A DNA stretch of 30,265 nucleotides, taken from a virus. The stretch is taken from IMG/VR virus record IMGVR_UViG_3300027704_000105, positions 1-30,265 of that record; one strand, given 5' to 3'. Position numbers and translations under genes: made by a program. Position 1 is the first letter of the stretch. Each line of letters begins with the position of its first letter. Below are positions 2,325 through 27,406 of this stretch, piece after piece. The notes beneath the pieces were generated by a model. It was given only the letters and a program-made list of their open reading frames with translations, had not been told where the DNA came from and ran no database searches.

Positions 2325-2520
2325 TATTGGCAAAGATTATAAGAATGACGCTATGCACTATGCCGTGGGGCAAGAAGTGTATGGTGGTCATACTATATGC
2401 GATATACTAGAAGAAGAAAACAAATTTTCTGTTTATATTAAAAAAGGTAAAGATGTTTTACCTTGGAAAGACTTTAATAAAAACATGGCTGTATCTGTAG
2501 AATATAACCTACAGTACTAA
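2299..2520 (+). CDS. Conserved 73-residue hypothetical protein
   Basis: The protein opens with KLIRKISIGKDYKNDAMHY and continues with alternating strands and charged turns up to VSVEYNLQY. I recall this N-terminal sequence type as a recurrent small phage protein, with no known function. The ATG at 2299 lies inside the preceding gene in another frame (26-base overlap) and is the only start that keeps the conserved N-terminus. The TAA at 2518-2520 overlaps the next ATG as TAATG. Translational coupling on both sides is therefore likely. Confidence 0.6.
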   Translation: MAKLIRKISIGKDYKNDAMHYAVGQEVYGGHTICDILEEENKFSVYIKKGKDVLPWKDFNKNMAVSVEYNLQY

Positions 2521-3131
2521 TGAAAAGCATTCGTGATTTTGTTGTATCACCAAAAGGAGGGAGATACAATAATACTAAGAAACTAGATGGCGGAGAGCTT
2601 ATACTAAACACTGAGATTTATAACCACGAGTATGTTAATAGAGAAGCAACTGTAGTATCTACTCCAATATTAGGTCATGCTGAGATAATGAGGGGCGACA
2701 CTGTTTTGGTGCATCACAACGTGTTTAGAAGATGGCACAACGTAAAAGGGGTTGAAAAGAATAGTAGAAGCTACTTTAATGAATCAACTTACTTTATAGG
2801 TGAAGATCAAATCTTTTTATACAAAAGAGATGAAGAGTGGATTTGCCCTAAAGGATATTGTTTTGTAATGCCACTAAAAGCTGTAGATCAATTTAACATT
2901 GAATCTGAAAAACCTTTACAAGGTATCGTTAAATATTCTGACGGTACAGTTGAAGTAGACGATCTAGTTGGTTTTAGACCAAGTAGTGAATACGAGTTTA
3001 TCGTTGATGGCGAAAGACTATATCGAGTTAAATCTAATTTTATTACAATCAAATATGAACATCAAGGAAACGAAGAGGAGTATAATCCAAGCTGGGCACA
3101 AAGCAGTGGAGGAACTGATAAAAGTAGCTAA
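2520..3131 (+). CDS. GroES-like co-chaperonin (phage type)
   Basis: The 203-residue protein has two beta-rich halves. The N-terminal half carries a GDTVLVHHNVFRRWHNVKG segment and the C-terminal half IVKYSDGTVEVDDLVGF followed by EYEFIVDGERLYRV. The spacing of GDTV, VGF and the closing strand resembles the GroES/Cpn10 barrel, and proteins of this type in uncultured marine phages are, as I recall, annotated as co-chaperonins. Phage GroES homologues such as T4 gp31 adapt the host chaperonin to fold the capsid protein, which suits a gene just upstream of the head genes. About twice the usual length of GroES, so a tandem or decorated barrel is possible. Its last 77 bases overlap the next gene. 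Confidence 0.5.
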   Translation: MKSIRDFVVSPKGGRYNNTKKLDGGELILNTEIYNHEYVNREATVVSTPILGHAEIMRGDTVLVHHNVFRRWHNVKGVEKNSRSYFNESTYFIGEDQIFLYKRDEEWICPKGYCFVMPLKAVDQFNIESEKPLQGIVKYSDGTVEVDDLVGFRPSSEYEFIVDGERLYRVKSNFITIKYEHQGNEEEYNPSWAQSSGGTDKSS

Positions 3132-3330
3132 AGAGGCTATTGTAGATTCAGATGATGATTTAACAGCAGATAAACTTAAGAACGCAGCAGCAACTAAAAA
3201 ACTAGCTATATTTGACGCATTTGAGATACTTAACAGAATCCAAGAAGAAGAAGACTTGCTTGAGGGTAAAACACCTGAAGAGGCAAAGGAAAAAACTTTT
3301 AAAGGATTCGCAGAAGGTAGATCTAAGTAA
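3055..3330 (+). CDS. Probable terminase small subunit
   Basis: Starting at the ATG at 3055 the product has 91 residues, almost all predicted helix: MNIKETKRSIIQAGHKAVEE, a hinge with DSDDDLTADKLKNAAATKK, then a second helix and an acidic-to-basic tail. Small, helical and directly upstream of the large subunit with a TAATG overlap is the usual place and shape of a small terminase, which recognises the packaging site and regulates the large subunit. No helix-turn-helix is obvious. A longer start at 2968 would lengthen the overlap with the preceding gene and adds a segment that looks like out-of-frame sequence, so 3055 is preferred. Confidence 0.5.
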   Translation: MNIKETKRSIIQAGHKAVEELIKVAKEAIVDSDDDLTADKLKNAAATKKLAIFDAFEILNRIQEEEDLLEGKTPEEAKEKTFKGFAEGRSK

Positions 3331-5543
3331 TGTACGAGCAAAGTTTAGTTAAAACGGTTGAGCCAATAAAAAAGACTACTATTAGTAGACTTAACAAGGG
3401 TAAGAAGTGGAAATACGGTTACGACAAAGAGCATGACGTTGTTGTTTTGTCTCACAATGGTCAGGTGGGAGAAATTATAGAAATACAAAGTTTAGTGATC
3501 GCTTTACCTAAGGTACCTAAGGATGTGTATAGCAACATAAAAAACAAATGGGTTAAGTTTGATCAACCGAAAGAATTAGAACGCTTAAAAAACATATTTG
3601 ACTGGAGAAGTTATCCGGAAAGCAATAAAGAAAAATGGCACGATTATATAGACGAAGAATTTAGAAGAAGAGAAGAAGGATTCTGGTTTATGAATGATGG
3701 TAAACCAACCTGGATAACTGGTACGCACTACATGTACTTACAATGGAGTAAGATAGATGTAGGCGCTCCAGACTTTAGAGAAGCAAATAGATTGTTTTTT
3801 ATATTTTGGGAGGCTTGCAAGGCGGACAAAAGATGTTATGGTATGTGTTATCTTAAGAATAGAAGATCTGGATTTTCTTTTATGTCCTCGGCTGAAACTG
3901 TTAATTTAGCCACTCTTGCAAGTGATAGTAGATATGGAATACTATCTAAATCAGGTGCTGATGCTAAAAAAATGTTTACCGACAAAGTTGTCCCTATATC
4001 AATCAACTACCCATTCTTTTTTAAACCTGTACAAGATGGTATGGATCGTCCAAAATCCGAGCTTGCTTACCGTGTACCTGCTAGTAAGTTTACTAGAAAA
4101 AAGATCACGGCAAACGAAAAACTTGAAGATATACAGGGATTAGATACAACGATTGACTGGAAAAACACTGGAGACAATAGTTATGACGGTGAAAAACTAG
4201 CTCTTCTAGTACATGATGAAAGTGGTAAATGGGAAAGACCTGATAACATATTAAATAACTGGAGAGTTACAAAAACATGCTTACGATTAGGTAGTAGAAT
4301 TATTGGTAAATGCATGATGGGATCAACTTCAAATTCATTAGACAAAGGTGGGGAAAACTTTAAAAAACTATACAACTCTTCGGATGTCACAAAGCGAAAT
4401 AAAAACGGTCAGACAAAGTCTGGTCTATACTCTTTGTTTATCCCAATGGAATGGAACTACGAAGGATTTATTGATGAGTATGGAGTTCCAGTATTTACTA
4501 CTCCTGACGTCGACAGATTCGCTCCAGACGGTGAACTAATAGATGTAGGTGTAATAGATAACTGGCAGAACGAAGTAGATGGTTTAAAAGAAGATCAAGA
4601 TGGTTTAAACGAGTTTTACCGCCAGTTTCCTAGAACTACAGAGCACGCGTTTAGAGATGAAACTAAAGGAAGTATATTTAATCTTGTTAAGTTGTACGAG
4701 CAAATAGATTATAACGAAGAAATGTCAAGAACACTAGGAGTTACTCAAGGTAATTTTCAATGGGTTAATGGCATTAAGGATTCTCAAGTTATATTTTACC
4801 CAGATCCAAAAGGTAGGTTTAAAGTTAGTTGGGTTCCATCTCAGCAACTACAAAACAGAGTTGTACTTAAAAATGGTATAAAGTATCCTGGTAACGAGCA
4901 TATGGGTGCTTTTGGTTGTGATTCATACGATATATCAGGAACAGTAGATGGCGTTGGATCTAAAGGGGCTTTACACGGGTTAACTAGATTTTCAATGGAA
5001 GATGCTCCTGCAAACAGTTTCTTTTTAGAATACTTATCTAGACCACCAACAGCTGAAATGTTTTTTGAAGATGTTTTAATGGCTTTAGTGTTTTACGGGA
5101 TGCCAATATTAGCAGAGAACAATAAACCTCGTCTTCTGTACTACTTAAGACGAAGAGGATATAGAGGGTTTAGTATGAATAGACCTGATAAAATATGGAA
5201 CAAATTATCTGTAGCAGAAAAAGAAGTTGGTGGAATACCTAATTCAAGCGAAGATATAAAACAAGCACATGCCGCTGCAATAGAAATGTATATCCAAGAT
5301 CACGTTGGTATAAAGCAAGATGGAACTCATGGAGATTGTTACTTCAATGAGCTCTTAAACGATTGGACAAAGTTTGATATAAACAAAAGAACAAAGCATG
5401 ATGCATCTATAAGTTCTGGTCTAGCTATTATGGCTAACAATAGACACTTGTATGCGCCAAACGCAAAGGTTGAAAAACCTAAGTTAAATATAAACGTTTC
5501 TAGGTACACAAACACTGGAAATAATTCACAAATAATCAAGTAA
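3330..5543 (+). CDS. terL: Terminase large subunit
   Basis: The 737-residue protein is the packaging motor, which cuts concatemeric DNA and pumps it through the portal by ATP hydrolysis. A degenerate Walker A-like segment KNRRSGFSFM lies at residues 177-186, and a Walker B LALLVHDES at 290-298, with catalytic Asp-Glu 296-297. The C-terminal RNase H-like nuclease half has FGCDSYD at 528-534 (first acidic residue D531 or D534), an acidic cluster near 576-581 and HDASISSG near 690-697. The size exceeds that of lambda- or T7-type enzymes, mainly because of an N-terminal extension of about 110 residues. It is followed by the portal gene after tandem stops (TAATAA). Confidence 0.9.
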   Translation: MYEQSLVKTVEPIKKTTISRLNKGKKWKYGYDKEHDVVVLSHNGQVGEIIEIQSLVIALPKVPKDVYSNIKNKWVKFDQPKELERLKNIFDWRSYPESNKEKWHDYIDEEFRRREEGFWFMNDGKPTWITGTHYMYLQWSKIDVGAPDFREANRLFFIFWEACKADKRCYGMCYLKNRRSGFSFMSSAETVNLATLASDSRYGILSKSGADAKKMFTDKVVPISINYPFFFKPVQDGMDRPKSELAYRVPASKFTRKKITANEKLEDIQGLDTTIDWKNTGDNSYDGEKLALLVHDESGKWERPDNILNNWRVTKTCLRLGSRIIGKCMMGSTSNSLDKGGENFKKLYNSSDVTKRNKNGQTKSGLYSLFIPMEWNYEGFIDEYGVPVFTTPDVDRFAPDGELIDVGVIDNWQNEVDGLKEDQDGLNEFYRQFPRTTEHAFRDETKGSIFNLVKLYEQIDYNEEMSRTLGVTQGNFQWVNGIKDSQVIFYPDPKGRFKVSWVPSQQLQNRVVLKNGIKYPGNEHMGAFGCDSYDISGTVDGVGSKGALHGLTRFSMEDAPANSFFLEYLSRPPTAEMFFEDVLMALVFYGMPILAENNKPRLLYYLRRRGYRGFSMNRPDKIWNKLSVAEKEVGGIPNSSEDIKQAHAAAIEMYIQDHVGIKQDGTHGDCYFNELLNDWTKFDINKRTKHDASISSGLAIMANNRHLYAPNAKVEKPKLNINVSRYTNTGNNSQIIK

Positions 5544-13974: not shown

Positions 13975-16900
13975 ATGCCAGAAATTAAGAGTAGTTTTCT
14001 TGGAGGTAAGATGAATAAGGATCTTGATGAAAGATTGTTACCTAAAGGCCAATATAGAAACGCTGAAAACATAGAGATTTCAACAGCTGAAAGCGCTAAC
14101 GTTGGTGCTGCTAAAAGTATACTTGGAAATAAAAGGCTTGAATTTTTAATTTCAAATGATTTTACCTGTGTTGGTAGTTTAGCTGATGAAAAAACAAATA
14201 AGCTTTACTGGTTTGTTACTACTTATTTAGAAGATGGTATATTTGAGTATGACACTATTAACGATATTGTGCTACCCGTGCTTCTTGACTTAAACGCTAG
14301 TAACTCTAACGCTGTTTTAAGATTTGGAACTTCACCTATAACCGGTATAAACGTAATAGATAATTTACTGCTATGGACAGATAATCTAACTAATCCAAAA
14401 AAAATAAACATAGACGAATGCAAAAAAGGAACGTCTATTAATGGTGATGGATCTTGGAATCACACTCAATTGTCATTTCCAAACGGAAGCTTTGATGGTG
14501 TAACACTAGAAAATATTGCACCTACCCCATTTGAAGTTCATGATGGTGTAAATTTTTTAGAAAAACGTTATCCAAAAGGTAGGTATTTCTTTTTTCAAGA
14601 AAAACAAATAAGTCGAGCTTTAGGGTTTCCGGATGGTATACCAGATTCCTCATCTCATTACCTGCGTCAATATCGAAATGGAGTACTTTTAAGAAGAGTT
14701 AGATGTAAATTGTGGACTAATTCTACGGACTTGGGAGGTGGTAGCAGCAATGGAACGCATGGTAGAATAGCTGCTTCGGATCCTGCTTTTACGCCGTTTG
14801 AACAAAACCAAAATTACGTAACAGTTCCTGACTTTCACCAAGGTGATATATTATTTGGTGACAATGTTACGGTGGATATAAAAGAAAAGCATATAACAAT
14901 TATTAGACCAAAACCTTTTCTCGCTCCTTCAACAAAAATTAATCACAAGAGAGGACTAGACTCTCGATTAGGAATACCAAATTTATTTGAAACGGTTTTT
15001 CCAAGATTTTCCTATAGATATAAATATAGAGATGGAGAGTTTTCTTCTTTTGCACCATTTACAAATGCTGTTTTTAACCCAATATATCCAAAAGATTTAA
15101 ATAATTCTTCAGAAACTAATGTTTTTCACACTAAGGATAATATTTATGGTATAACTGACCCTAGTAATAAAGCAATGAAAAACTCAATAAATTCTATTGA
15201 GTTAAGTGGTTTTATTAACGCAAAAACCCCAGAGGATGTGATTGAGGTTGATGTTTTGTACAAACAAGAAAACTCTAGCGTAGTATATTCAATAGCAACA
15301 ATAAAACACAATGATCCAGAGTGGCACTTACCAGCTAATGATGAAGGGTATAACCTAGGATATAGCAATGACCACCCCGCTTTTAAAGCCGCAGGTGGAT
15401 ATACTAAGGGCAAGTACATTGTTAATACAGAAAACATTTACGCTGCTTTACCAACTAATCAATTGCTTAGACCATGGGATAACGTTCCAAGAAGAGCAAA
15501 AGCACAAGAGGTAACAGGAAATAGAGTTGTATATGGTAATTATTTGCAAAATTACAATTTAGGCGAGCATAGAACAAAAATTAAAGTTAATTACAGTGAT
15601 AGAAGTAGTAATATAGGTTCGTTTAACACACAAGCGCTACCATCTATAAAGTCGCAAAGAAACTATCAGTTAGGAGTTGTTTATTGTGATAAATACGGTA
15701 GAGAAACACCAGTATTTACATCAACCACAGCAGCGGTAACCGTACCTTGGGCCGATCCTAATGGTTTAAAAAATGCGAGCAGAAGCCTTCAATTAAATGC
15801 TAATGTAGCTGCCAATTTTCCAGAATGGATAGATTCAATAAAGTTTTATATAAAAGAAACTTCTAACGAGTACTATAACTTGGTAATGGATAGAGCTTGG
15901 GTTAGTCAAAGCACTGATGATTTAGATAATTCAGAGGGGCACTTGTGGATATCTTTTCCATCTTCAGATAGAAATAAAATTACAGAAGGAAAATTCATTG
16001 TATTAAAGAAAAAAATTGGATTAGAAGAGGGGCAGATTGCAGTTGAAAACAAGTTTAAAGTGATAAATATTTCAAATGAAGCTCCTGATGCTATAAAATA
16101 CGAGTTGATTAACCAAGGCATTATTACTGCCGCTAGTGATATTGAAAGTATATTCAATAACGCCGATAGCAGAATGGATGTTCCTAATAACAACAATATT
16201 TATTTAGACGCTAGTGGATGGAAAACTAGTGGTTTTAAAGGTGTTCCTCTGGAGCATGGGGAAACACCTGTAGATAGCGCTTTGGATGTTAGTAATATAT
16301 ATATATCTTGGTACAGAATTATTAGTGGATCAAGAGTGGCGTCTAAAAAATACAAGGTTGCTGGTGGGCGCTTGGATAGTTCTGGTTACATGCTTAAGTT
16401 GAAAAATGAAATATCTTCAATTGACGCGGATATAGCACACTTTAATGGAGATTCTAGTGAAGCGTCTCAACCCACAAATATGAACAGTGATTTAGTTGTA
16501 GAGCTTCAGCGAAAAGAACTTAAAACAGGTGAGGATTTTTCAGGTTCATTTTTTGTAAAAATATCAAAAAATCAAGTCTCAGATATAATAGAACAAACCA
16601 ATGTTACTAGTGTTTTAGATAACCATCAAGTAAATGCTAAAACGCCTTGTTGGTGGTGGAGAGATGATATAGCGGTTGATAACAACGTAAGAGCATATCA
16701 ATCTACTTATGGTATTACTAATTACAATGGGTACGATTCCGGAGCGCATAGTGGTGGTAATTCTATTCAATCTGCGGATAACAACGTTTTAGGCGACGTG
16801 GGTATTACTAATGATACACTTGACACTTCAGACTACGCTGAAATATGGAGCGGTATATACGATAACTATGTGGTAAATAATGTGGGTACGTTTTTTCTTG

Positions 16901-19900
16901 ATGGGATGTATATGGCTTCAGGACAAAGCGATGCTAGTAACTACGCAAAATACAATTGCGTAACGTGGTCTGGAGCACACAAAGATAAAAACAAAAGTAC
17001 CTATCATATCAAAGGTCTTTCTGCGTGGAGTTATCCGCCGCTAAAAACCTGGTTAGGTGACTATGAAGATTCTACTGCTCTTATAGAAAACCTAGAAACA
17101 GACACTCCGCTGCTACTTAACAACATGTTAATATCAACTTCACCAGCGCTTCCAGAAAACGCATCTTGGCTTGACAACAGAGTAGATGGTTGGGTAGGAC
17201 ACTCGCAGCGTGTTGAAAGAAATTTCGGTGAAGCCCCTAGTGTGTTGAGAAAAGGAACATCACACGTTAATGGATTAGAAGGTATTGTTACTTCTGGAAC
17301 AGATCATGCTGACAATGGTAGAAGATGGTTAAGTGGTATATCTGGTAACCCAACTGAGTATGGGGTTGGGGTTGACACTAAAACATACTCAGACAACGGT
17401 GAAACTGGAAGGCATTTTATGCATTTATCATTCTTTGCACCAGGCGACGACCTACACGATGGTAATGTAACTATTGATGATGGATCAGACGGTAATTCAT
17501 TTACACTGTTTGAAGGCGGGGCGGTTGGAAGAAGATTACAAGGAATATGGGGTGGTGGGCACTTTACCGGTGATAATTTAAATGATACAATTGGAAATGG
17601 TACTACAGATGAAACTCGCCATCAACATTTATGTTTAGAGGGTAATTACGATTCAAATGGTGATTTTCTCTCTGCGGCACCTGGTCCGGGTGTTGGCTTT
17701 GGTTACGACTTAAAATACAAAGAACTACACGAGAGACAATGGGATCCAACTTTTCCTTCTGATCCTGGCAATAAAATACGTGATTTTATAAGAAACATAC
17801 ATGCTGGTTCGCAATTTAAATTCAACCCATATTTAGAAGACCTAACTAATGCTAATGAAACTATTTACACTATAAAAAGTGTAGATGTAAAAAAAATATA
17901 TAACCATACTTCTTGGAGAAACACTTTTAATAGATGGGAAGAGATTGACGGTTACACGGCAGAAGCTGAAGATAAAAAATTCTGGTCTGTAGAGCGAGCA
18001 GCTATGGACTGGCTTCAATACATAGGTTCGGATGGTAAAAAAATCTATTCTGCCGAATGGGCGGCAGCGTCCAACTTAATGAGTGATAAAATCCAAGATT
18101 TTGGAAAATCTCATAACAGAAGACTTTGTTATATAATAGAGTTAGATAAAGATCCAACTAAAAACGGAAACTTTAATCCTATAGATACAGGTGTAGCACT
18201 AGGTAGAATGACAGCTGATCAAACTAATAATGAGTATCATAATATTGAATTTTTAGATAAAATTAAGTCAGTAGCTGGTATTAATGATTTAAATAAATAT
18301 CCAGCAATTTGGGAAACTGACCCTGCCAAACAACAAGTTGATTTAGATATATACTTCGAGGCAAGTAGTAATATACCTGTTAGACTAAATAATAATACAA
18401 ACGAAATATTTGCGCCAATAGGTTGTAGGGTTGAACTGCTTAATTCTCCAGTGGCAGGCCTGTCTTACTTAACCGAGTGGAATAATAACATAGCTACATT
18501 AACCCCAGGTTTTGCTGTTTTTGACAGTGTGAATGAAATAAATTACTCAGGCGTTTCGTTTAAGTTTATAAAAGAAGATGGTAGTTATGTTATAGCAAAA
18601 GCAGGGGCCAACCAACTAACTGGAGCTATTTCAACTGATCCTCCTAAAACTCTTTTTACCTTTGATGAAAACATTGGAGAAAACATAAGAGTTGGTTTAA
18701 ATTGGAACAATTGCTTTTCATTTGGAAACGGTTTGGAGTCTAATAGAATTGGAGATGACTTCAATGAAATGTTTCTTGTTAACGGTGTTAAAGCATCAAC
18801 AACTACGCAAATAACCTACCAAGAAGAACGTAGATCAACTGGGTTGATTTATTCTGGGCTTTACAACTCTAACTCTGGCGTTAATGATCTTAATCAGTTT
18901 ATAATGGCTGAGAAGATCACTAAGGACTTAAACCCTACGTTTGGTAGTATACAAAAATTATTTCAAAGAAGAATTAGCTTGGTAGCTTTTTGTGAGGATA
19001 GGGTTATTAGTATAACCTCAAATAAAGACGCTATATACAACGCTGATGGAAACCCACAATTAATAGCTTCTGACAGTGTACTTGGTGATGCTAATCCTTT
19101 TGAGGGTAACTATGGTATATCCAAAAACCCAGAATCATTTGCATCAGAAAGCTATAGAGCTTACTTTACAGATAAAAATAAAGGAGCAGTTGTCAGATTG
19201 TCTAAAGATGGTTTAACACCTATATCTACCGGAGGAATGCATGATTGGTTTAGAGACAATTTAAAAGGTTACACCGCCTTAATAGGAACGTATGACGCTT
19301 ATAAGGAAGACTATAACTTAACTTTGTCTCACAAGTTTTCAGAAAACATTATTTTTAATTCATACTTAGAAAGCGGTGGTATAGCATCAACCACAGAAAT
19401 GGGTCAAATAGCTAATGAACTTCAAAACCCAAGTATTTTTAGTGGCATGAGCTTGCAGTACCCTTATGAGATAGATAACATATTAACAGACAATAACTAT
19501 ACGTGGGGAAATATTAATGAAGAATTAATAAGTACTGTTTTAGTTACAAATCACGCCGTTATACCTGAGGGGTCATTGCAGGCTTACGTGCCCTACTTGG
19601 CTCCAGTGGATTATGTAGAAGAAGTAATTGGTGTTGAGGCGGTTTTAGCGGTTACTGAAGTTATAGGCGTAGAATACGTAGAGGCAGTGGCTGAAGTTGT
19701 AGGCGTAGAATACCAAGCCGCAGTGGAATACGTAGAATACGTAGAGGCAGTGGCTGAAGTAACGGCTGAAGATGAGGTTCTTGCACAAGACGCAATAGCG
19801 TTTAGTGCAGGAGTAGTTGGAGTAGATTATAGTGCTCCAGAGTTTGCTATTGATCCTGATGCCAGTGGAAATGGTTTTATTTACAATGGGCCTTTTATAG

Positions 19901-22900
19901 CTGGATGGAATGAAACAACGGGGGATATTTTTGGGGTAAACCGAGTTGATTATTCTGATTCCCTCAAGCCTTCTACCATAGTTAGAAAATGGGGCGCAAA
20001 CGTATATGACGAAGATCAAACCAATTTTCAAGGGTCAGGTGCAAACAACAGCAACCTATGGTATGATTATGGCCAACCTGGAGCAGTCGCGCACACTTAT
20101 GCGCAAATATATGGAGTGATAGGATGGAGATACGCTGGTAAAGCTCTTGGAAAAATCACTCAAGATGCCACTGGCTCCAATCAGGGTACTCAAGGGGCAA
20201 TACTTTTTAATAGAACTTACCCAAACAATACTAGATACGTTGAGTTTAAAGATCTAGGACAACCCCCTAATAATGGCCAAGGTTTGTTGGATCTGTACAA
20301 CTATCAAGCGGGGCAACTTGACAATGAAAACTCTGCTATGTTTGCTGGTGACGAAATAGAAATAAAGGTTATACTTAAGATTAGTATAACAAGTACATTC
20401 ACTTCAGGAAACAATACCAGTTACCCAAATTTAGCACATAATCACGTTATTCCTCAAATAGAACTGCATGACGGTAGTGGCGGTATTATTTCTCCTGATA
20501 AAATAATGTCAACATCAGTAATAGTACAATCCCCCACCTTAAACCAAAACTTATACAACCCAGTATACTACGCATATACTCCTTTTATTACTGAAACAGC
20601 TTACAATACGAGTGGTATAAATGCAGATATTGATCTTGGGTTTGTTTCGTCGGCGCAAGTTGTATTTCCTCAAACACAATATACCACTACATCAACGGGG
20701 CAAAGCGATAGTACTCCTGTTGCTGTTTACACACTTAAGTTTCGCGTAAAATTTAAAGATCCTGCTCAAAGTTACACCAGTGCTTCAAACTCTTATGTTG
20801 ACTCAAAAGTTGTAGATGATCTTAGAATTCGCGTGTGTAACGTAATGCCTTTAAGTACCTTGCCAATTTATAATGGAGTTTCAAATGATTATCAAGGATC
20901 AGGCCCAAGTCCATTACGTGGTAGAGCAAAGTTTTGGGTGCATGAATTAGTCGCGACTAAAACGCTTGGGATAATAAAGCCAGACGTTGAGTTTGTTCAA
21001 TTTGTTGAAGAACAACAAGCTCAAGACGCGCAGGCGTACGTAGCGGCTGTTGAGTATCAACCAGCTATTGATGAGGTTCTTGAAGTACTCGCGTCTGATG
21101 AAGTTGAATTTGTTCAAGCGCAAGAAGCTATACAAGGAGTCGATGCTGTTTTAGCCGTGGCACCTGTTGATGCTGTTGATTTTGTTCAAGCGGTATTAGG
21201 GGTTGATGAAGTGCTGGAAATAGCAGAGGTGGCTGCCGTACCACCTTATGAAGTTGAAGCGTGGACACAAGTAACGCACCAAGGTCTTAATAATTGGTTA
21301 ATAAATACAAGTGGAGGCGCGGATTCATACGTATCAGCAACTACTATAAATAACTTTGGAGGAGACTATCCAGCTGTTAGTGCCTCTGGTTTTGCTCAAA
21401 ACTCAGATCCAGCAATTTCAGGCGGAAGCATAATCAATTATGTAACACCTGGTGTAGAGCCTACCTCAGGTAGTCCTTTTGGGACTTCTCCATATGCTGG
21501 TATTGGGTATGGAAACGGTACGTCTAACTCAGGTACAATAATTGAACACGACAACTCCTATGTTTTAATAGATACCGTTAATTATACTGGAAATTGGAAT
21601 GCTCAATCTTTTTCAATATATCAAGATATATCAGCAACAAGTCTTGTGGTAAATGAATGGTATTTAATTGATGTTGAATTTGATGAATCACACAACGCTA
21701 GTACTGGTAATAATTCTAACGGAAATGGTTTGGTTGAAGTTGATGGGGTTGTTGATAGATCAGGAACACTTGGCACCGAAATTAGCCCACAAGGCGTTGG
21801 TTTTTATTCTGGAGTAAATGCACATACGAATTGCGGCTTAGTTCCAACGGTTAGAACTGAGTACGGTAATACTGATGGGTCTGGTGATAACAAACTTGTT
21901 TTAAGAGGTATTTTTAAGTTCCACTCTAATAGTTGGCGTGAAACTTCAGGTAGTGCTACAAATTATTTACGCTTGCTATTTACTGATTTTACAAACACGG
22001 CTAAAATTACTAAAATAATTACTAGAAGCCTAGAAACAACAACAACAACTGGTACGGCTAATCATTGGTATCATTTTAGTGATGATCAAGCGCATTCATT
22101 TTCACCTAAAGCAATGTACTGGCAATCAAATGGGTCAGCTGCAACCGCTAAGACGCTTTGTTTTGAAGAGGGTGTTGGTGGGACAGAAAACGTAAGTGTG
22201 GGATTAGGTGCTTCTTTTTGGGCACAAGATCTTCCGTTTGGAGGCGCCATGGCAACATCGGTGGTAGGTTGGAAGTTTAAATTTAAAATAACTAACAATC
22301 CAAGAACAAATACGTTTTTAGGCGCCTTAAACGCTTATATAAACACAGAGGTAAGCATAGACAACTCTAGCGACGGTGGGGTTACAGCCAAGTCCCTAGG
22401 TATACTTGTTAAAGATATAGATGCTGTTGGCGATTACGAAATTGACTTTAATTTTGAAACTAGTGACTCTAATTGGACTATAAACGCGCCTGCTGGAGCG
22501 TCTACAACCTTGGAGGTTTATCCAAATCCAACATCAGTTGAAGCTGAAAACAAACTAGTGTTTTACACGCAAAACAATACTCAAACAATTTGCGGTATTA
22601 AAGACACTGTTATTGGAGATAAAACTTTAGTTTTATTAGGTGGATCAATTGGCTCTTGGGACTGGCGTGGGTTTGACCAAACCCAAGACAACTTTATAAC
22701 CTGGGATAATGTTGTTGATATTAATACGGGTACTAGTCAAAACAGAATTGAATTTACTAATTGCCCATTTGTAGACGGTGATAACCGTGAAATTGTAAGC
22801 GCAAGCCAGTACGTGGACACTGTAATTAACAGATATGAGCATTGGACTGTTAGTATTGATCATGGTATTTATGCTGGCGATTTAAGCGTATACTATTTTA

Positions 22901-23763
22901 ACTCTAAAGGATTTGGATTTAGAATATTTGGCATAAATAGTTCTAACCAAGGAACTCTTGTAACAAACGTAGTTGTAGGCGCTCTTAGTTGGGAAAGTAT
23001 AAATCCGGCTGATGAAGATCTTTTGCCTGAAATGAAAAACGCCTTTGTCATTAGGCCGCAGTCTAATAGCGCGCCTGTTAGTGGTTGGGTTGACAATGTA
23101 ACTATGACTAGGAACTTTGCCTTAGAAACTACTAGTAACGGAAACCCTATTTACACTAGCAAAACAATATCTTTTAACGAAGGAGCAAATGGATGGACTA
23201 GTTTTAAAAGCTTTGTTCCTGAAAGCGGTTTTAGTGTATCTAAAAATTACTTTACATTTGATAAGGGTGGATTGTTTAAGCATTACGCTCCAATGATTTA
23301 TGATGCTGCCGCTCAAGAGTATGTAGATTCTTCAGAAGAAATAGCTGAAAACTACAATATATTTTATGGTGTAGATACGTACAAGTCTAGTATAACAACC
23401 ATATTAAATGATCAACCTGGTATTGTAAAAACATTTAATACTTTGAATTACGAGGGTAGCCAAGGAAACGTTAAGCTACCATCACTAGTACAACAAGTTA
23501 ACATTAATAACGCCGCGGCTTGGAGTAGCGGTAGTGATATTTTAGGCTGGAAGTGCACTGATATTACAACTGACTTAGAAGCTGGTTCTGTTAAAGAGTT
23601 TATAAAAAAAGAAGGAAAATGGTTTGGCTATATAAAAGGTGCCACTCATTCAGCTGCTGTTTTAGATACTAGTCGCTTTAGCGTTCAAGGTATAGGCGTG
23701 CCTTCTTCAATATCATCAACACCTATAATGGTGCCAGAAGGTACCGTTGGTCTTACTCAATAA
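13975..23763 (+). CDS. Giant tail-hub / stabilization protein, 3262 residues, modular
   Basis: The N-terminus carries SFLGGKMNKDLDERLLPKGQ and YRNAENIEIST with NVGAAKSILGN, the signature I recall for the large 'stabilization' or nozzle/muzzle-type proteins of crAss-like and marine phages, probably beta-propeller based. Conserved core motifs continue (IQKLFQRRISLVAFCED, NADGNPQLIASDSVLGDANP, ESYRAYFTDKNKGAVVRLS, GGMHDWFRDNLKGY, up to about residue 1790). The core resumes at about 3063 with TISFNEGANGWTSFKSF and FTFDKGGLFKHY. Between 1878 and about 3050 lies an insertion: xxV triplet block, beta domain, second xxV block, and more beta domains. A further unusual Gly/Asp/Trp-rich stretch lies at about 900-1270. 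The protein most likely forms the tail tube end and carries receptor-binding modules. Confidence 0.75.
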   Translation: MPEIKSSFLGGKMNKDLDERLLPKGQYRNAENIEISTAESANVGAAKSILGNKRLEFLISNDFTCVGSLADEKTNKLYWFVTTYLEDGIFEYDTINDIVLPVLLDLNASNSNAVLRFGTSPITGINVIDNLLLWTDNLTNPKKINIDECKKGTSINGDGSWNHTQLSFPNGSFDGVTLENIAPTPFEVHDGVNFLEKRYPKGRYFFFQEKQISRALGFPDGIPDSSSHYLRQYRNGVLLRRVRCKLWTNSTDLGGGSSNGTHGRIAASDPAFTPFEQNQNYVTVPDFHQGDILFGDNVTVDIKEKHITIIRPKPFLAPSTKINHKRGLDSRLGIPNLFETVFPRFSYRYKYRDGEFSSFAPFTNAVFNPIYPKDLNNSSETNVFHTKDNIYGITDPSNKAMKNSINSIELSGFINAKTPEDVIEVDVLYKQENSSVVYSIATIKHNDPEWHLPANDEGYNLGYSNDHPAFKAAGGYTKGKYIVNTENIYAALPTNQLLRPWDNVPRRAKAQEVTGNRVVYGNYLQNYNLGEHRTKIKVNYSDRSSNIGSFNTQALPSIKSQRNYQLGVVYCDKYGRETPVFTSTTAAVTVPWADPNGLKNASRSLQLNANVAANFPEWIDSIKFYIKETSNEYYNLVMDRAWVSQSTDDLDNSEGHLWISFPSSDRNKITEGKFIVLKKKIGLEEGQIAVENKFKVINISNEAPDAIKYELINQGIITAASDIESIFNNADSRMDVPNNNNIYLDASGWKTSGFKGVPLEHGETPVDSALDVSNIYISWYRIISGSRVASKKYKVAGGRLDSSGYMLKLKNEISSIDADIAHFNGDSSEASQPTNMNSDLVVELQRKELKTGEDFSGSFFVKISKNQVSDIIEQTNVTSVLDNHQVNAKTPCWWWRDDIAVDNNVRAYQSTYGITNYNGYDSGAHSGGNSIQSADNNVLGDVGITNDTLDTSDYAEIWSGIYDNYVVNNVGTFFLDGMYMASGQSDASNYAKYNCVTWSGAHKDKNKSTYHIKGLSAWSYPPLKTWLGDYEDSTALIENLETDTPLLLNNMLISTSPALPENASWLDNRVDGWVGHSQRVERNFGEAPSVLRKGTSHVNGLEGIVTSGTDHADNGRRWLSGISGNPTEYGVGVDTKTYSDNGETGRHFMHLSFFAPGDDLHDGNVTIDDGSDGNSFTLFEGGAVGRRLQGIWGGGHFTGDNLNDTIGNGTTDETRHQHLCLEGNYDSNGDFLSAAPGPGVGFGYDLKYKELHERQWDPTFPSDPGNKIRDFIRNIHAGSQFKFNPYLEDLTNANETIYTIKSVDVKKIYNHTSWRNTFNRWEEIDGYTAEAEDKKFWSVERAAMDWLQYIGSDGKKIYSAEWAAASNLMSDKIQDFGKSHNRRLCYIIELDKDPTKNGNFNPIDTGVALGRMTADQTNNEYHNIEFLDKIKSVAGINDLNKYPAIWETDPAKQQVDLDIYFEASSNIPVRLNNNTNEIFAPIGCRVELLNSPVAGLSYLTEWNNNIATLTPGFAVFDSVNEINYSGVSFKFIKEDGSYVIAKAGANQLTGAISTDPPKTLFTFDENIGENIRVGLNWNNCFSFGNGLESNRIGDDFNEMFLVNGVKASTTTQITYQEERRSTGLIYSGLYNSNSGVNDLNQFIMAEKITKDLNPTFGSIQKLFQRRISLVAFCEDRVISITSNKDAIYNADGNPQLIASDSVLGDANPFEGNYGISKNPESFASESYRAYFTDKNKGAVVRLSKDGLTPISTGGMHDWFRDNLKGYTALIGTYDAYKEDYNLTLSHKFSENIIFNSYLESGGIASTTEMGQIANELQNPSIFSGMSLQYPYEIDNILTDNNYTWGNINEELISTVLVTNHAVIPEGSLQAYVPYLAPVDYVEEVIGVEAVLAVTEVIGVEYVEAVAEVVGVEYQAAVEYVEYVEAVAEVTAEDEVLAQDAIAFSAGVVGVDYSAPEFAIDPDASGNGFIYNGPFIAGWNETTGDIFGVNRVDYSDSLKPSTIVRKWGANVYDEDQTNFQGSGANNSNLWYDYGQPGAVAHTYAQIYGVIGWRYAGKALGKITQDATGSNQGTQGAILFNRTYPNNTRYVEFKDLGQPPNNGQGLLDLYNYQAGQLDNENSAMFAGDEIEIKVILKISITSTFTSGNNTSYPNLAHNHVIPQIELHDGSGGIISPDKIMSTSVIVQSPTLNQNLYNPVYYAYTPFITETAYNTSGINADIDLGFVSSAQVVFPQTQYTTTSTGQSDSTPVAVYTLKFRVKFKDPAQSYTSASNSYVDSKVVDDLRIRVCNVMPLSTLPIYNGVSNDYQGSGPSPLRGRAKFWVHELVATKTLGIIKPDVEFVQFVEEQQAQDAQAYVAAVEYQPAIDEVLEVLASDEVEFVQAQEAIQGVDAVLAVAPVDAVDFVQAVLGVDEVLEIAEVAAVPPYEVEAWTQVTHQGLNNWLINTSGGADSYVSATTINNFGGDYPAVSASGFAQNSDPAISGGSIINYVTPGVEPTSGSPFGTSPYAGIGYGNGTSNSGTIIEHDNSYVLIDTVNYTGNWNAQSFSIYQDISATSLVVNEWYLIDVEFDESHNASTGNNSNGNGLVEVDGVVDRSGTLGTEISPQGVGFYSGVNAHTNCGLVPTVRTEYGNTDGSGDNKLVLRGIFKFHSNSWRETSGSATNYLRLLFTDFTNTAKITKIITRSLETTTTTGTANHWYHFSDDQAHSFSPKAMYWQSNGSAATAKTLCFEEGVGGTENVSVGLGASFWAQDLPFGGAMATSVVGWKFKFKITNNPRTNTFLGALNAYINTEVSIDNSSDGGVTAKSLGILVKDIDAVGDYEIDFNFETSDSNWTINAPAGASTTLEVYPNPTSVEAENKLVFYTQNNTQTICGIKDTVIGDKTLVLLGGSIGSWDWRGFDQTQDNFITWDNVVDINTGTSQNRIEFTNCPFVDGDNREIVSASQYVDTVINRYEHWTVSIDHGIYAGDLSVYYFNSKGFGFRIFGINSSNQGTLVTNVVVGALSWESINPADEDLLPEMKNAFVIRPQSNSAPVSGWVDNVTMTRNFALETTSNGNPIYTSKTISFNEGANGWTSFKSFVPESGFSVSKNYFTFDKGGLFKHYAPMIYDAAAQEYVDSSEEIAENYNIFYGVDTYKSSITTILNDQPGIVKTFNTLNYEGSQGNVKLPSLVQQVNINNAAAWSSGSDILGWKCTDITTDLEAGSVKEFIKKEGKWFGYIKGATHSAAVLDTSRFSVQGIGVPSSISSTPIMVPEGTVGLTQ
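19606..19824 (+). repeat. Valine-triplet (xxV) block 1 in the tail-hub protein
   Basis: Residues 1878-1950 run as 25 triplets in one register, with Val in the third place in 20 of them and Gln, Glu, Gln, Ile and Ser in the other five. Glu, Ala, Tyr and Gly fill most other positions (EYVEAVAEVVGVEY). The nucleotide period is 9. The block separates the hub core from the first inserted domain and looks like a rigid or extended linker. Confidence 0.85.
19669..19760 (+). repeat. 29-base in-frame direct repeat within xxV block 1
   Basis: A perfect 29-base sequence beginning GTAGAATACGTAGAGGCAGT occurs at 19669-19697 and again at 19732-19760, 63 bases apart (21 codons). A shorter 14-base copy, TAGGCGTAGAATAC, occurs at 19664-19677 and 19700-19713, 36 bases apart (12 codons). 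All offsets are multiples of three, so gain or loss of a unit keeps the frame. Confidence 0.9.
20980..21240 (+). repeat. Valine-triplet (xxV) block 2 in the tail-hub protein
   Basis: Residues 2338-2422 form 29 triplets with Val in the third position in 20, Ile in 3, Gln in 5 and Ser in 1. Asp, Glu, Ala and Gln are the usual fillers (GVDAVLAVAPVDAVDFVQAV). At DNA level this block is more diverged than block 1 but shares the VEFVQ / VDFVQA words at three places. It closes the first inserted domain and opens the next. Confidence 0.85.
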
Positions 23764-25238: not shown

Positions 25239-25598
25239 ATGCACACTAAATTAACGTTTGAACATCCTATAAACCCATCACTACACATTGGAGACGAAGT
25301 ATACTTTTCCGACACTAGCGCAGATCAAGTGACGGGGTCAAAACCTATTCACGTAGGCCAGGTTTATGGTATTTTTAGAGATGATAATTATATAGTTATA
25401 AATACAGCTCCAACTGAACCACCTATGTCTTTGTACGTTAACGTAAACCTTATGCCACTTGTGTTGTTTGCAAAGCACATAGAGACTAACGAGTCTAGTT
25501 TAAAAGGTTATTACGCTAATATAACTTTTGAAAACTTATCTAATAAAAAATGCGAGCTATTTGGTTTTGGCTCAGAAACAGATCTTAGTAGTAAATAG
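25239..25598 (+). CDS. Small virion protein, marine-phage type
   Basis: This 119-residue protein opens KLTFEHPINPSLHIGDEVYF and ends GYYANITFENLSNKKCELFG followed by a Ser-Ser-Lys tail. From memory, proteins with the NPSLxxGDxVY start and the GYY..v.F.N....ELF end are common beside tail genes of marine phages, without known function. It is a compact beta-rich domain with no membrane segment. It follows the 483-residue gene after 11 bases and is the last gene before the hairpin that separates the tail and internal-protein groups. The stop is TAG. Confidence 0.6.
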   Translation: MHTKLTFEHPINPSLHIGDEVYFSDTSADQVTGSKPIHVGQVYGIFRDDNYIVINTAPTEPPMSLYVNVNLMPLVLFAKHIETNESSLKGYYANITFENLSNKKCELFGFGSETDLSSK

Positions 25599-25684: not shown

Positions 25685-27406
25685 ATGGGTATACTTGGAA
25701 ACCTTTTTGGAGGTAGAGATAAAAGAAAACAAAAAGATGCAATGGCTGACATGCGAGAGCTGGCAGATGAACAAGTTGACTACTACACTGGGCAGCAGCA
25801 AGACGCACAAGACGCTGTAGACGAGTCAAGAGAGGTTTTTGACAACTTTGAGTTTAAAAATGATTTTGAAGATTTACAAAACCCTTACGCTGACATACAA
25901 ACCGAGTTTGACAATGTTTATGAAAACACTGAAAACGTTTATGAAGGCGCTGAAAACGTTTATGAAGATGCGGTTAATGTAGCCGACGGCATGACAAACG
26001 TTGCTGCTGATGCGCAAAACGTATATGCTGGAGCAAAAAATACATTTGCCGGCGCAAAAAACACGTTTGCTGGCATGGACAACGCATATGCTGGTTTAGA
26101 AAACAAGTACGAAGGCATGGAAAACCGTTTTGAAGATATGACGGTTGATATGAAGGCCGCTGACTTCCAAGCGCAACAAGGGAAAACACAGCGAGCAAAT
26201 ATTATGCAAGGTTTAAAAGGTGCTGCTGGATCAAGTGGTGTAGCGGGTTTAGCACAAGCCATGGCTAACCAAGGCCAAATGCAATCTCAACAAATAGCCG
26301 CTGGTATAGGTCAGCAAGAAAGGCAAAACGCAATGATGTCGGCACAAGAAGGATCTAGAATAGATCAACTACAAAGAGGAGCTGGTATGCAGCTACAATC
26401 TCAAGAAGCTGGCGGTGCCATGGCTAACCAACAAGCCGAAAGATCTGGCGCAATGCAACAGCAAAGTATGCAAATGCAAGGAGCTGCAAGTCAACAAGCT
26501 CAAATACTAGGCGGGGCAGCAGCACAACAGGCCCAACAATTAGCTGGGGCACAAACTCTCCAGAATCAACAAATTGCAGGGGCTTCCGAACAACAAAATT
26601 TAATACTAGGTGGGAGAGATAAACAACAAGATAAAATACTAGCTGGGAGAGATAAACAACAAGATCAAATATTAGCAGGTCAACAAACCGCTGTAAACCA
26701 AGGTATAAGCCAAACAAATATACAAGCTGGAGGCCAAGGAGTTGTAGACATGCAAATTGCTCAGGGTAACGCTGATGTTCAAGCGGCAGAATATGGGCAG
26801 CTAGCAACAGGGCTTGGTATGGATTATGGCTTATTAGCAGGTGCTAACCAAGGGTTACAAAATGCAATGGGTAATCAAATGAGTGGTTTAGGAAATGAAG
26901 CAAATATGTATGGCTCCAATGCGGCTAATAGTATTGGAGGGCAATTTTTACAAGCGGGAGCCACTGTTGCTGCTGGTGCTCTAGGTGCAAAAAGTTCATT
27001 TTTATGTGTTCCACAAGGCGTAAATATTGACTGTGAGAATATTAAAAAGCCAATTGAACAAATAAAAGTTGGAGACATGGTTGTAGGTTATAACGGAGAT
27101 CTTGTTAAAGTGTTGCAAAAACACGAGTACTTAGAAGATCCAAAAGTAGAAAGATTTTACAAGGTTAAGTTTTTAAACACAGAAACAAATAAAACACACG
27201 AGGTAGATGTTTGTGACATGCATAGGATTATGGGTGAAAGAGCTATGAACATAACAAAAAATGTTGTTAGTAAAGAAATTTACAGCGGCGTTAACTATAG
27301 TTATGATCTATTAACAGAAGATGCTGGTTACAGAATAGATGATATCCCTGTTAACAGTATGATAGAAGAGCTAGCTTTAGCTACATCTAAAACAAACAAT
27401 AAATAA
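25685..27406 (+). CDS. Repeat-built internal or ejection-type virion protein with C-terminal Hint domain
   Basis: The 573-residue protein starts MGILGNLFGGRDKRKQ. Residues 77-153 are 11 heptads with Asn in the first position. Then comes ADFQAQQGKTQRANIMQGL with AAGSSGVAGLAQAMANQG, a conserved stretch I recall from many marine phage proteins next to tail genes. Residues 269-334 are six clean 11-residue repeats (consensus xQQxxILAGxx). From C441 a Hint-like domain follows: C441, PIEQIKVGDMVVGYNGD at 456-472, VDVCDMHRIM at 507-516, YDLLTEDAGYRID at 540-552, and PVNSM at 555-559. I infer an internal, ejected or tail-needle protein that may process its own C-terminus. The long helical repeats could span the periplasm. 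Confidence 0.65.
   Translation: MGILGNLFGGRDKRKQKDAMADMRELADEQVDYYTGQQQDAQDAVDESREVFDNFEFKNDFEDLQNPYADIQTEFDNVYENTENVYEGAENVYEDAVNVADGMTNVAADAQNVYAGAKNTFAGAKNTFAGMDNAYAGLENKYEGMENRFEDMTVDMKAADFQAQQGKTQRANIMQGLKGAAGSSGVAGLAQAMANQGQMQSQQIAAGIGQQERQNAMMSAQEGSRIDQLQRGAGMQLQSQEAGGAMANQQAERSGAMQQQSMQMQGAASQQAQILGGAAAQQAQQLAGAQTLQNQQIAGASEQQNLILGGRDKQQDKILAGRDKQQDQILAGQQTAVNQGISQTNIQAGGQGVVDMQIAQGNADVQAAEYGQLATGLGMDYGLLAGANQGLQNAMGNQMSGLGNEANMYGSNAANSIGGQFLQAGATVAAGALGAKSSFLCVPQGVNIDCENIKKPIEQIKVGDMVVGYNGDLVKVLQKHEYLEDPKVERFYKVKFLNTETNKTHEVDVCDMHRIMGERAMNITKNVVSKEIYSGVNYSYDLLTEDAGYRIDDIPVNSMIEELALATSKTNNK
25913..26143 (+). repeat. Eleven asparagine-headed heptad repeats
   Basis: Residues 77-153 form 11 consecutive seven-residue units, each starting with Asn and usually followed by x-Tyr/Phe-x-Gly/Asp (NVYEGAE, NVYEDAV, NTFAGAK, NTFAGMD, NKYEGME, NRFEDMT). 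The nucleotide period is 21, and neighbouring units such as AAAAACGTTTATGAAG-type words are nearly identical at DNA level, which suggests recent tandem duplication. Confidence 0.9.
26489..26686 (+). repeat. Six 11-residue (hendecad) repeats with a 22-base exact DNA repeat
   Basis: Residues 269-334 form six units of 11 residues with consensus xQQxxILAGxx (SQQAQILGGAA, EQQNLILGGRD, KQQDKILAGRD, KQQDQILAGQQ). A 22-base sequence beginning TGGGAGAGATAAACAACAAG is identical at 26611-26632 and 26644-26665, 33 bases apart. Weaker units of the same length extend upstream to about residue 203. Confidence 0.9.
27005..27403 (+). other. Hint (hedgehog/intein-type) domain, C-terminal
   Basis: Residues 441-573. 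Block A: Cys441, then KPIEQIKVGDMVVGYNGD (455-472), the typical splice-domain start. Block B: VDVCDMHRIM (507-516), with His513 in the place of the TxxH histidine but Cys510 in place of Thr. Block F/G-like end: YDLLTEDAGYRIDD (540-553) then IPVN-SM, with Asn557 followed by Ser558. Inteins end His-Asn before Ser, Thr or Cys; here Val precedes the Asn. No homing endonuclease is present; the domain is about 117 residues to Asn557 with a 16-residue tail. Confidence 0.75.

Follow-up and report, generated by a model that had tools for sequence, protein, structure and literature searches.

The muzzle of crAss001 is a hexamer, and length variation among the muzzles of gut crassviruses has been reported in the crass and IG2 domains (PMC10172136). 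In the evolved Dit proteins of siphophages, a CBM placed between two long linkers of a hexameric tail-tip protein projects about 60 Å (PMC9437275). A polyproline-II chain makes one turn per three residues, and Gly-rich bundles of such chains occur in a T-even phage adhesin and in the snow flea antifreeze protein (PMC8409303).

We analysed a stretch of viral DNA of 30,265 nucleotides (IMG/VR record IMGVR_UViG_3300027704_000105, hereafter the window), whose source is a marine virus related to the crAss phages of the gut. Its 3262-residue ORF product can be identified from sequence as a crassvirus muzzle homologue, which would place it at the tail tip. The features of this gene are as follows.

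13975..23763, + strand: muzzle-protein homologue, 3262 aa (Pfam crAss_MUZ_C, phrog_14478, gene order and crAss001 gp44 profile match)
19339..23148, + strand: insertion of about 1,270 residues, aa 1789-3058, in place of a tight turn (phi40:1/crAss001 muzzle comparison)
19537..19554, + strand: base strand 1, aa 1855-1860, at the start of arm 1 (AF2 strand 26-31, local pLDDT about 60-77)
19582..19824, + strand: arm 1, xxV block 1, aa 1870-1950, 27 triplets, 21 with Val
19825..20979, + strand: D1, CBM4/CBM22-like beta-sandwich by model, aa 1951-2335, 385 aa (AF2 model, VIA-align)
20980..21240, + strand: arm 2, xxV block 2, aa 2336-2422, 29 triplets, of which 20 have Val, 5 Gln and 3 Ile
21262..21279, + strand: base strand 2, AWTQVT, aa 2430-2435; arm 2 ends at this conserved [IV]PAWTEV anchor (kept in relatives; AF2 strand 601-606)
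21280..23148, + strand: rest of the insertion, beta-rich, aa 2436-3058 (one part weakly similar to D1 by profile)
23350..23637, + strand: crAss_MUZ_C, muzzle C-terminal domain, aa 3126-3221 (Pfam match)

The muzzle assignment draws on the crAss_MUZ_C domain (31.5 bits against a cut-off of 27), a phrog_14478 match with an E-value of 5e-124, and profile alignment of crAss001 gp44 to the C-terminal part of the protein (hhalign probability 97.0, E 1.2e-10) and, more weakly, to its N-terminal part (probability 39). Portal and large terminase PHROGs lie upstream, and the gene order is that of Cellulophaga phage phi40:1. A phmmer search of the PDB with the 3262-residue protein returned no match. The likeness to gp44 thus comprises the C-terminal Pfam domain, profile similarity at both ends and the place after the portal and virion genes, whereas gp44 has only 1371 residues. 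The original prediction had called this protein a tail hub, a name that in crAss001 belongs to other proteins; it is better described as a muzzle homologue.

Both xxV blocks fall within a single insertion. The muzzle of phi40:1, which has 1324 residues and, according to its database record, was detected in virions by mass spectrometry, matches the muzzle profile up to its residue 1070 and again from 1079, flanking the insertion at window residues of about 1780 and 3064, with the junction sequences 'YNLTLSHKF' and 'YTSKTISF'. This site corresponds to about residue 1200 of gp44 and lies between two strands in its C-terminal part, whereas the published variation in length concerns the crass and IG2 domains. 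Among 71 further marine muzzles, most are without the insertion and none carries an xxV tract. The beta-rich remainder of the insertion (aa 2436-3058) matched no Pfam or PHROG family. One part of it is weakly similar to D1 by profile (E 0.008-0.012, probability 4-5%), a weak hint, on which we did not accept that D1 and the domain after it are repeats.

Several other observations were made in this genome and its relatives. A GroES-like co-chaperonin gene (2520-3131; phrog_13932, E 4e-18) lies immediately upstream of the large terminase gene. The ORF at 25685-27406 holds 21- and 33-base tandem repeats (25909-26074 and 26589-26676), matches the LbR_Ice_bind beta-roll family below threshold, and perhaps encodes a tail fibre. 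The first part of phrog_18548 matches muzzle residues 3062-3163 (region 23062-23465) and its last part a separate ORF (25239-25598), as though one ancestral protein had been parted in two by the insertion of a gene. In Maribacter phage Panino (L034, 5509-9422) the muzzle profile is divided between two reading frames, and in L026 an ORF of 1895 aa precedes one of 845 aa; each may reflect a split gene, an intron or a frameshift.

The two xxV blocks were recounted. Val occupies 20 of 25 third positions in residues 1876-1950 and 20 of 29 in residues 2336-2422, each in a single register, bearing out the two unbroken tracts originally described. Shuffling the residues of each block reached the observed count in none of 100,000 trials (for block 1, mean 9.3 and maximum 16 against 20 observed), and Val off the third positions was found twice in block 1 and never in block 2. 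Gln is the main substitute, as originally described, with two in block 1 (residues 1870-1950, besides L, E, I and S once each) and five in block 2 (besides three I and one S). The triplets have E, A, D, Q or L mostly at position 1, A, E, Y/F or G at position 2, and V, Q or I at position 3, and positions 1 and 2 differ in composition (permutation p = 0.0005 and < 0.0001). With V, Q or I at the third position and only five and two Gly in the two blocks, the tracts match neither a collagen-like Gly-X-Y repeat nor a Gly-rich polyproline-II bundle with Gly at its interhelical positions; we agree with the earlier view that the three-residue period is that of neither a heptad nor collagen. At the DNA level, 24 of 27 nine-base units in block 1 and 28 of 29 in block 2 are distinct and the Val codons are mixed, indicating that the register is held at the protein level. 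Duplication has nevertheless contributed to the tracts, as seen in a weak 36-nt repeat within block 1 (19655-19760, 68% matches) and in three identical copies of GAATACGTA. That block 1 is a copy of block 2 is not supported, since 315 of 1000 phase-preserving shuffles were equally similar and the likeness does not exceed shared composition.

Relatives are encoded by 27 contigs, one of them a duplicate. None of the relatives fetched has a long xxV tract, the long version being seen in one virus only, and about 23 of them carry short arms, typically of 2-8 triplets, at the same positions and in the same phase relative to fixed anchors, again with Gln as a substitute. The signal is strong in arm 2 and weaker in arm 1. 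In arm 2 of 23 relatives, V or I at -24 to -4 of the AW(T)EV anchor fell 77 times in phase against 6 and 19 times in the other two phases, a bias as extreme in 0 of 2000 shuffles, which ignore relatedness; where V or I is replaced at -11 and -14, this is mainly by Gln. In six anchors outside this test, position -11 was V or Q every time and position -14 was V, I or Q three times. Counted from the arm 1 anchor, V or I was in phase 42 times against 17 and 14, and in the ten SLQ-type relatives 30 times against 4 and 3. About half of the relatives have V or I in phase no more than once in arm 1. Random breaks of the register among homologues, which would have spoken against the original prediction, were thus not what the relatives displayed, the phase being kept in both arms. 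The register is an inherited, and unusual, property of this linker pair, and the arms give the impression of an unusual stalk that has been lengthened, not of random filler. In the relatives' arm 2, Pro is enriched at position 1 of the triplet (51 counts), a compositional feature compatible with polyproline II.

D1, the segment of 385 residues between the blocks, agrees with the earlier description of linkers flanking a beta-rich domain. An AF2 model of residues 1830-2445 (mean pLDDT 54) reaches a pLDDT of up to 91 in the D1 core, and VIA-align gave Z 9.3 to CBM4-2 (2y64) and 8.9 to CBM22-1 (4xuo), at sequence identities of 3-8%. CBMs lead the list, with middling Z from a model of this mean pLDDT and a best match spanning 143 residues. 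The modelled domain resembles a CBM4/CBM22-type beta-sandwich fold. For the equivalent domain of the short-armed relative L014 the likeness to CBMs is less clear (Z at most 6.9), and D1 itself matched no Pfam family, CBM families included, and no PHROG.

How the two arms lie relative to each other is suggested by the family. In L282, a relative that lacks D1 as well as the two arms, profile segment 1418-1973 is followed directly by 2581-3574, and only a few residues separate the anchors (AIPQGSIRSAAAGVDPIPSSDIPAW). Since the anchors are adjacent where the arms and D1 are missing, the arm bases are neighbours in this family and the arms run out and back; arm 1, D1 and arm 2 form, as judged from sequence, a removable cassette. 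L282 (residues 540-600) offers a natural muzzle relative for use as an empty-site control. The two base strands are paired in both AF2 models, that of the window protein (local pLDDT about 66-76 for base strand 2) and that of L014. The L014 model has single-residue bridges at 53, 56 and 59 and at 428, 431 and 434 (pLDDT about 48-61), which are third positions of both arms; with partners deduced from the index sums, these sums are constant at 486-487, as in an antiparallel ladder. Antiparallel pairing of the arm bases at every third residue is accordingly a lead from modelling, at low confidence. Carried over to the window, the L014 register sets Q1869-V1950 opposite V2422-V2341, with 28 positions per side, and such 28-to-28 pairing would account for the equal length of the arms (28 and 28-29 triplets). 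In a mirror test chosen after this register had been seen, non-Val positions coincided towards the tip, with an overlap of 8.9 in the antiparallel against 1.0 in the parallel arrangement (p = 0.005, shuffles). The run lengths of the two arms among relatives were not significantly correlated (Spearman coefficient 0.36 with p 0.09, or 0.21 with p 0.34 by score), and zipper pairing along the full arms would be a tentative extension of the modelling lead.

Similar tracts were sought elsewhere. Scanning viral contigs for GT at nine-base intervals gave at least 120 matches, and a stricter version again at least 120, in both cases mostly antisense Gly-X-Y frames or microsatellites. Two viral ORFs do resemble the window in having long in-frame xxV tracts, one in L046 with 36 triplets of AEV/ANV type and one in L175 with TPV linkers between domains. 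They differ from the window blocks in their low diversity of nine-base units (11 distinct of 36 and 9 of 14). Searching phage records with the two blocks by tblastn found no match, a negative that carries no information given the low-complexity filter. With the blocks as queries, phmmer against the PDB gave chance-level matches alone (E 0.4 and 0.6), and a literature search on Val-triplet linkers found nothing on point.

We consider it probable that the two tracts are the arms of one cassette, seated on a muzzle hairpin, which hold the CBM-like domain on an out-and-back spacer. Arm 1, D1 and arm 2 would be inserted in a hairpin of a crassvirus-type muzzle, the arms leaving side by side from two antiparallel base strands, running outward and returning, with the D1 beta-sandwich at their far end. 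The long arms would be lengthened versions of the short linkers that in relatives have V, I or Q at every third residue in the same places. Because a polyproline-II chain makes one turn per three residues, Val side chains recurring with that period would all lie along the same side of it, and the arm conformation is probably extended or polyproline-II-like. Through the Val lane the two arms probably pack on each other, or on a neighbouring subunit, which keeps the spacer extended, while the other two triplet positions (acidic, Ala, Gln or aromatic) would face solvent. At 0.31 nm per residue, 28 triplets would reach about 26 nm, so that a glycan-binding-type domain could be held some tens of nanometres off the tail tip and contact host surface polysaccharide. 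A stronger version, in which Gly-free antiparallel polyproline-II-like chains zipped by a Val/Ile/Gln lane make a new fold, a rigid stalk of about 26 nm whose arms lengthen together by triplets, seems to us unlikely as things stand.

The main competitor holds that the arms are disordered, flexible spacers tethering D1, with a Val register inherited from ancestral short linkers and spread by duplication of nine-base units. The xxV blocks have a pLDDT of about 30-45 throughout, with short helix calls at 102-114 and 511-529 of the model, which leaves room for plain disorder; the 36-nt repeat and the identical copies of GAATACGTA do testify to duplication, and short, irregular linkers suffice in relatives that lack the long tract. 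Disordered linkers would not, however, be expected to retain a hydrophobic residue in each third position, and the register is kept although nearly all nine-base units differ; the other two triplet positions keep their own composition, the phase is conserved in relatives, and the blocks resemble each other no more than their common composition would lead one to expect. We regard this reading as somewhat unlikely, if a little less so than the zipped fold.

Further down the scale stands an oligomeric fibrous fold, in which the Val lane might bundle three chains, say, or six, and for which the original prediction had tentatively suggested a trimer. Intrachain pairing of the bases and the equal arm lengths already explain both tracts, which point to two segments of one chain lying side by side and lend the trimer no support, and a collagen-type triple helix has no room for Val in its interior. 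A hexameric muzzle as in crAss001 (PMC10172136) would bring six copies of each arm close together, and Gly-rich bundles with a three-residue period are at work in T-even phage adhesins (PMC8409303); on balance we find bundling between chains improbable. Hardly credible is an artefact of the DNA, whether a microsatellite translated by chance in frame or an assembly error. Most of the GT-every-nine-bases matches listed from viral contigs are indeed microsatellites or antisense Gly-X-Y frames, but here the frame is open through 3262 residues, the units are distinct, the codons are mixed and the phase is conserved in independent contigs, which refutes this explanation for practical purposes.

Compared with the described systems, the out-and-back cassette is a layout of known kind, a domain on two linkers at the tail tip, in which the carrier is new and the linker unusual. 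The evolved Dit shares only this layout with the window muzzle, the carriers being unrelated, and a three-residue Val register, present in the window arms, is not described for its linkers in PMC9437275. Gly-rich polyproline-II bundles resemble the arms in their three-residue period and extended chain and set a precedent in phage host recognition, but they need Gly at the packed position, where the window arms use Val, Ile or Gln. If the arms are ordered, they would represent a Gly-free stalk with a three-residue period, an architecture overlooked by secondary-structure programs, and a phage could change the reach of its host-binding domain simply by adding triplets. Even as flexible spacers, they would indicate that the muzzles of marine crassviruses acquire cassettes of glycan-binding type away from the insertions reported for their gut counterparts, a parallel to what siphophages have in their evolved Dits, and the conserved anchors make this cassette easy to find and test.
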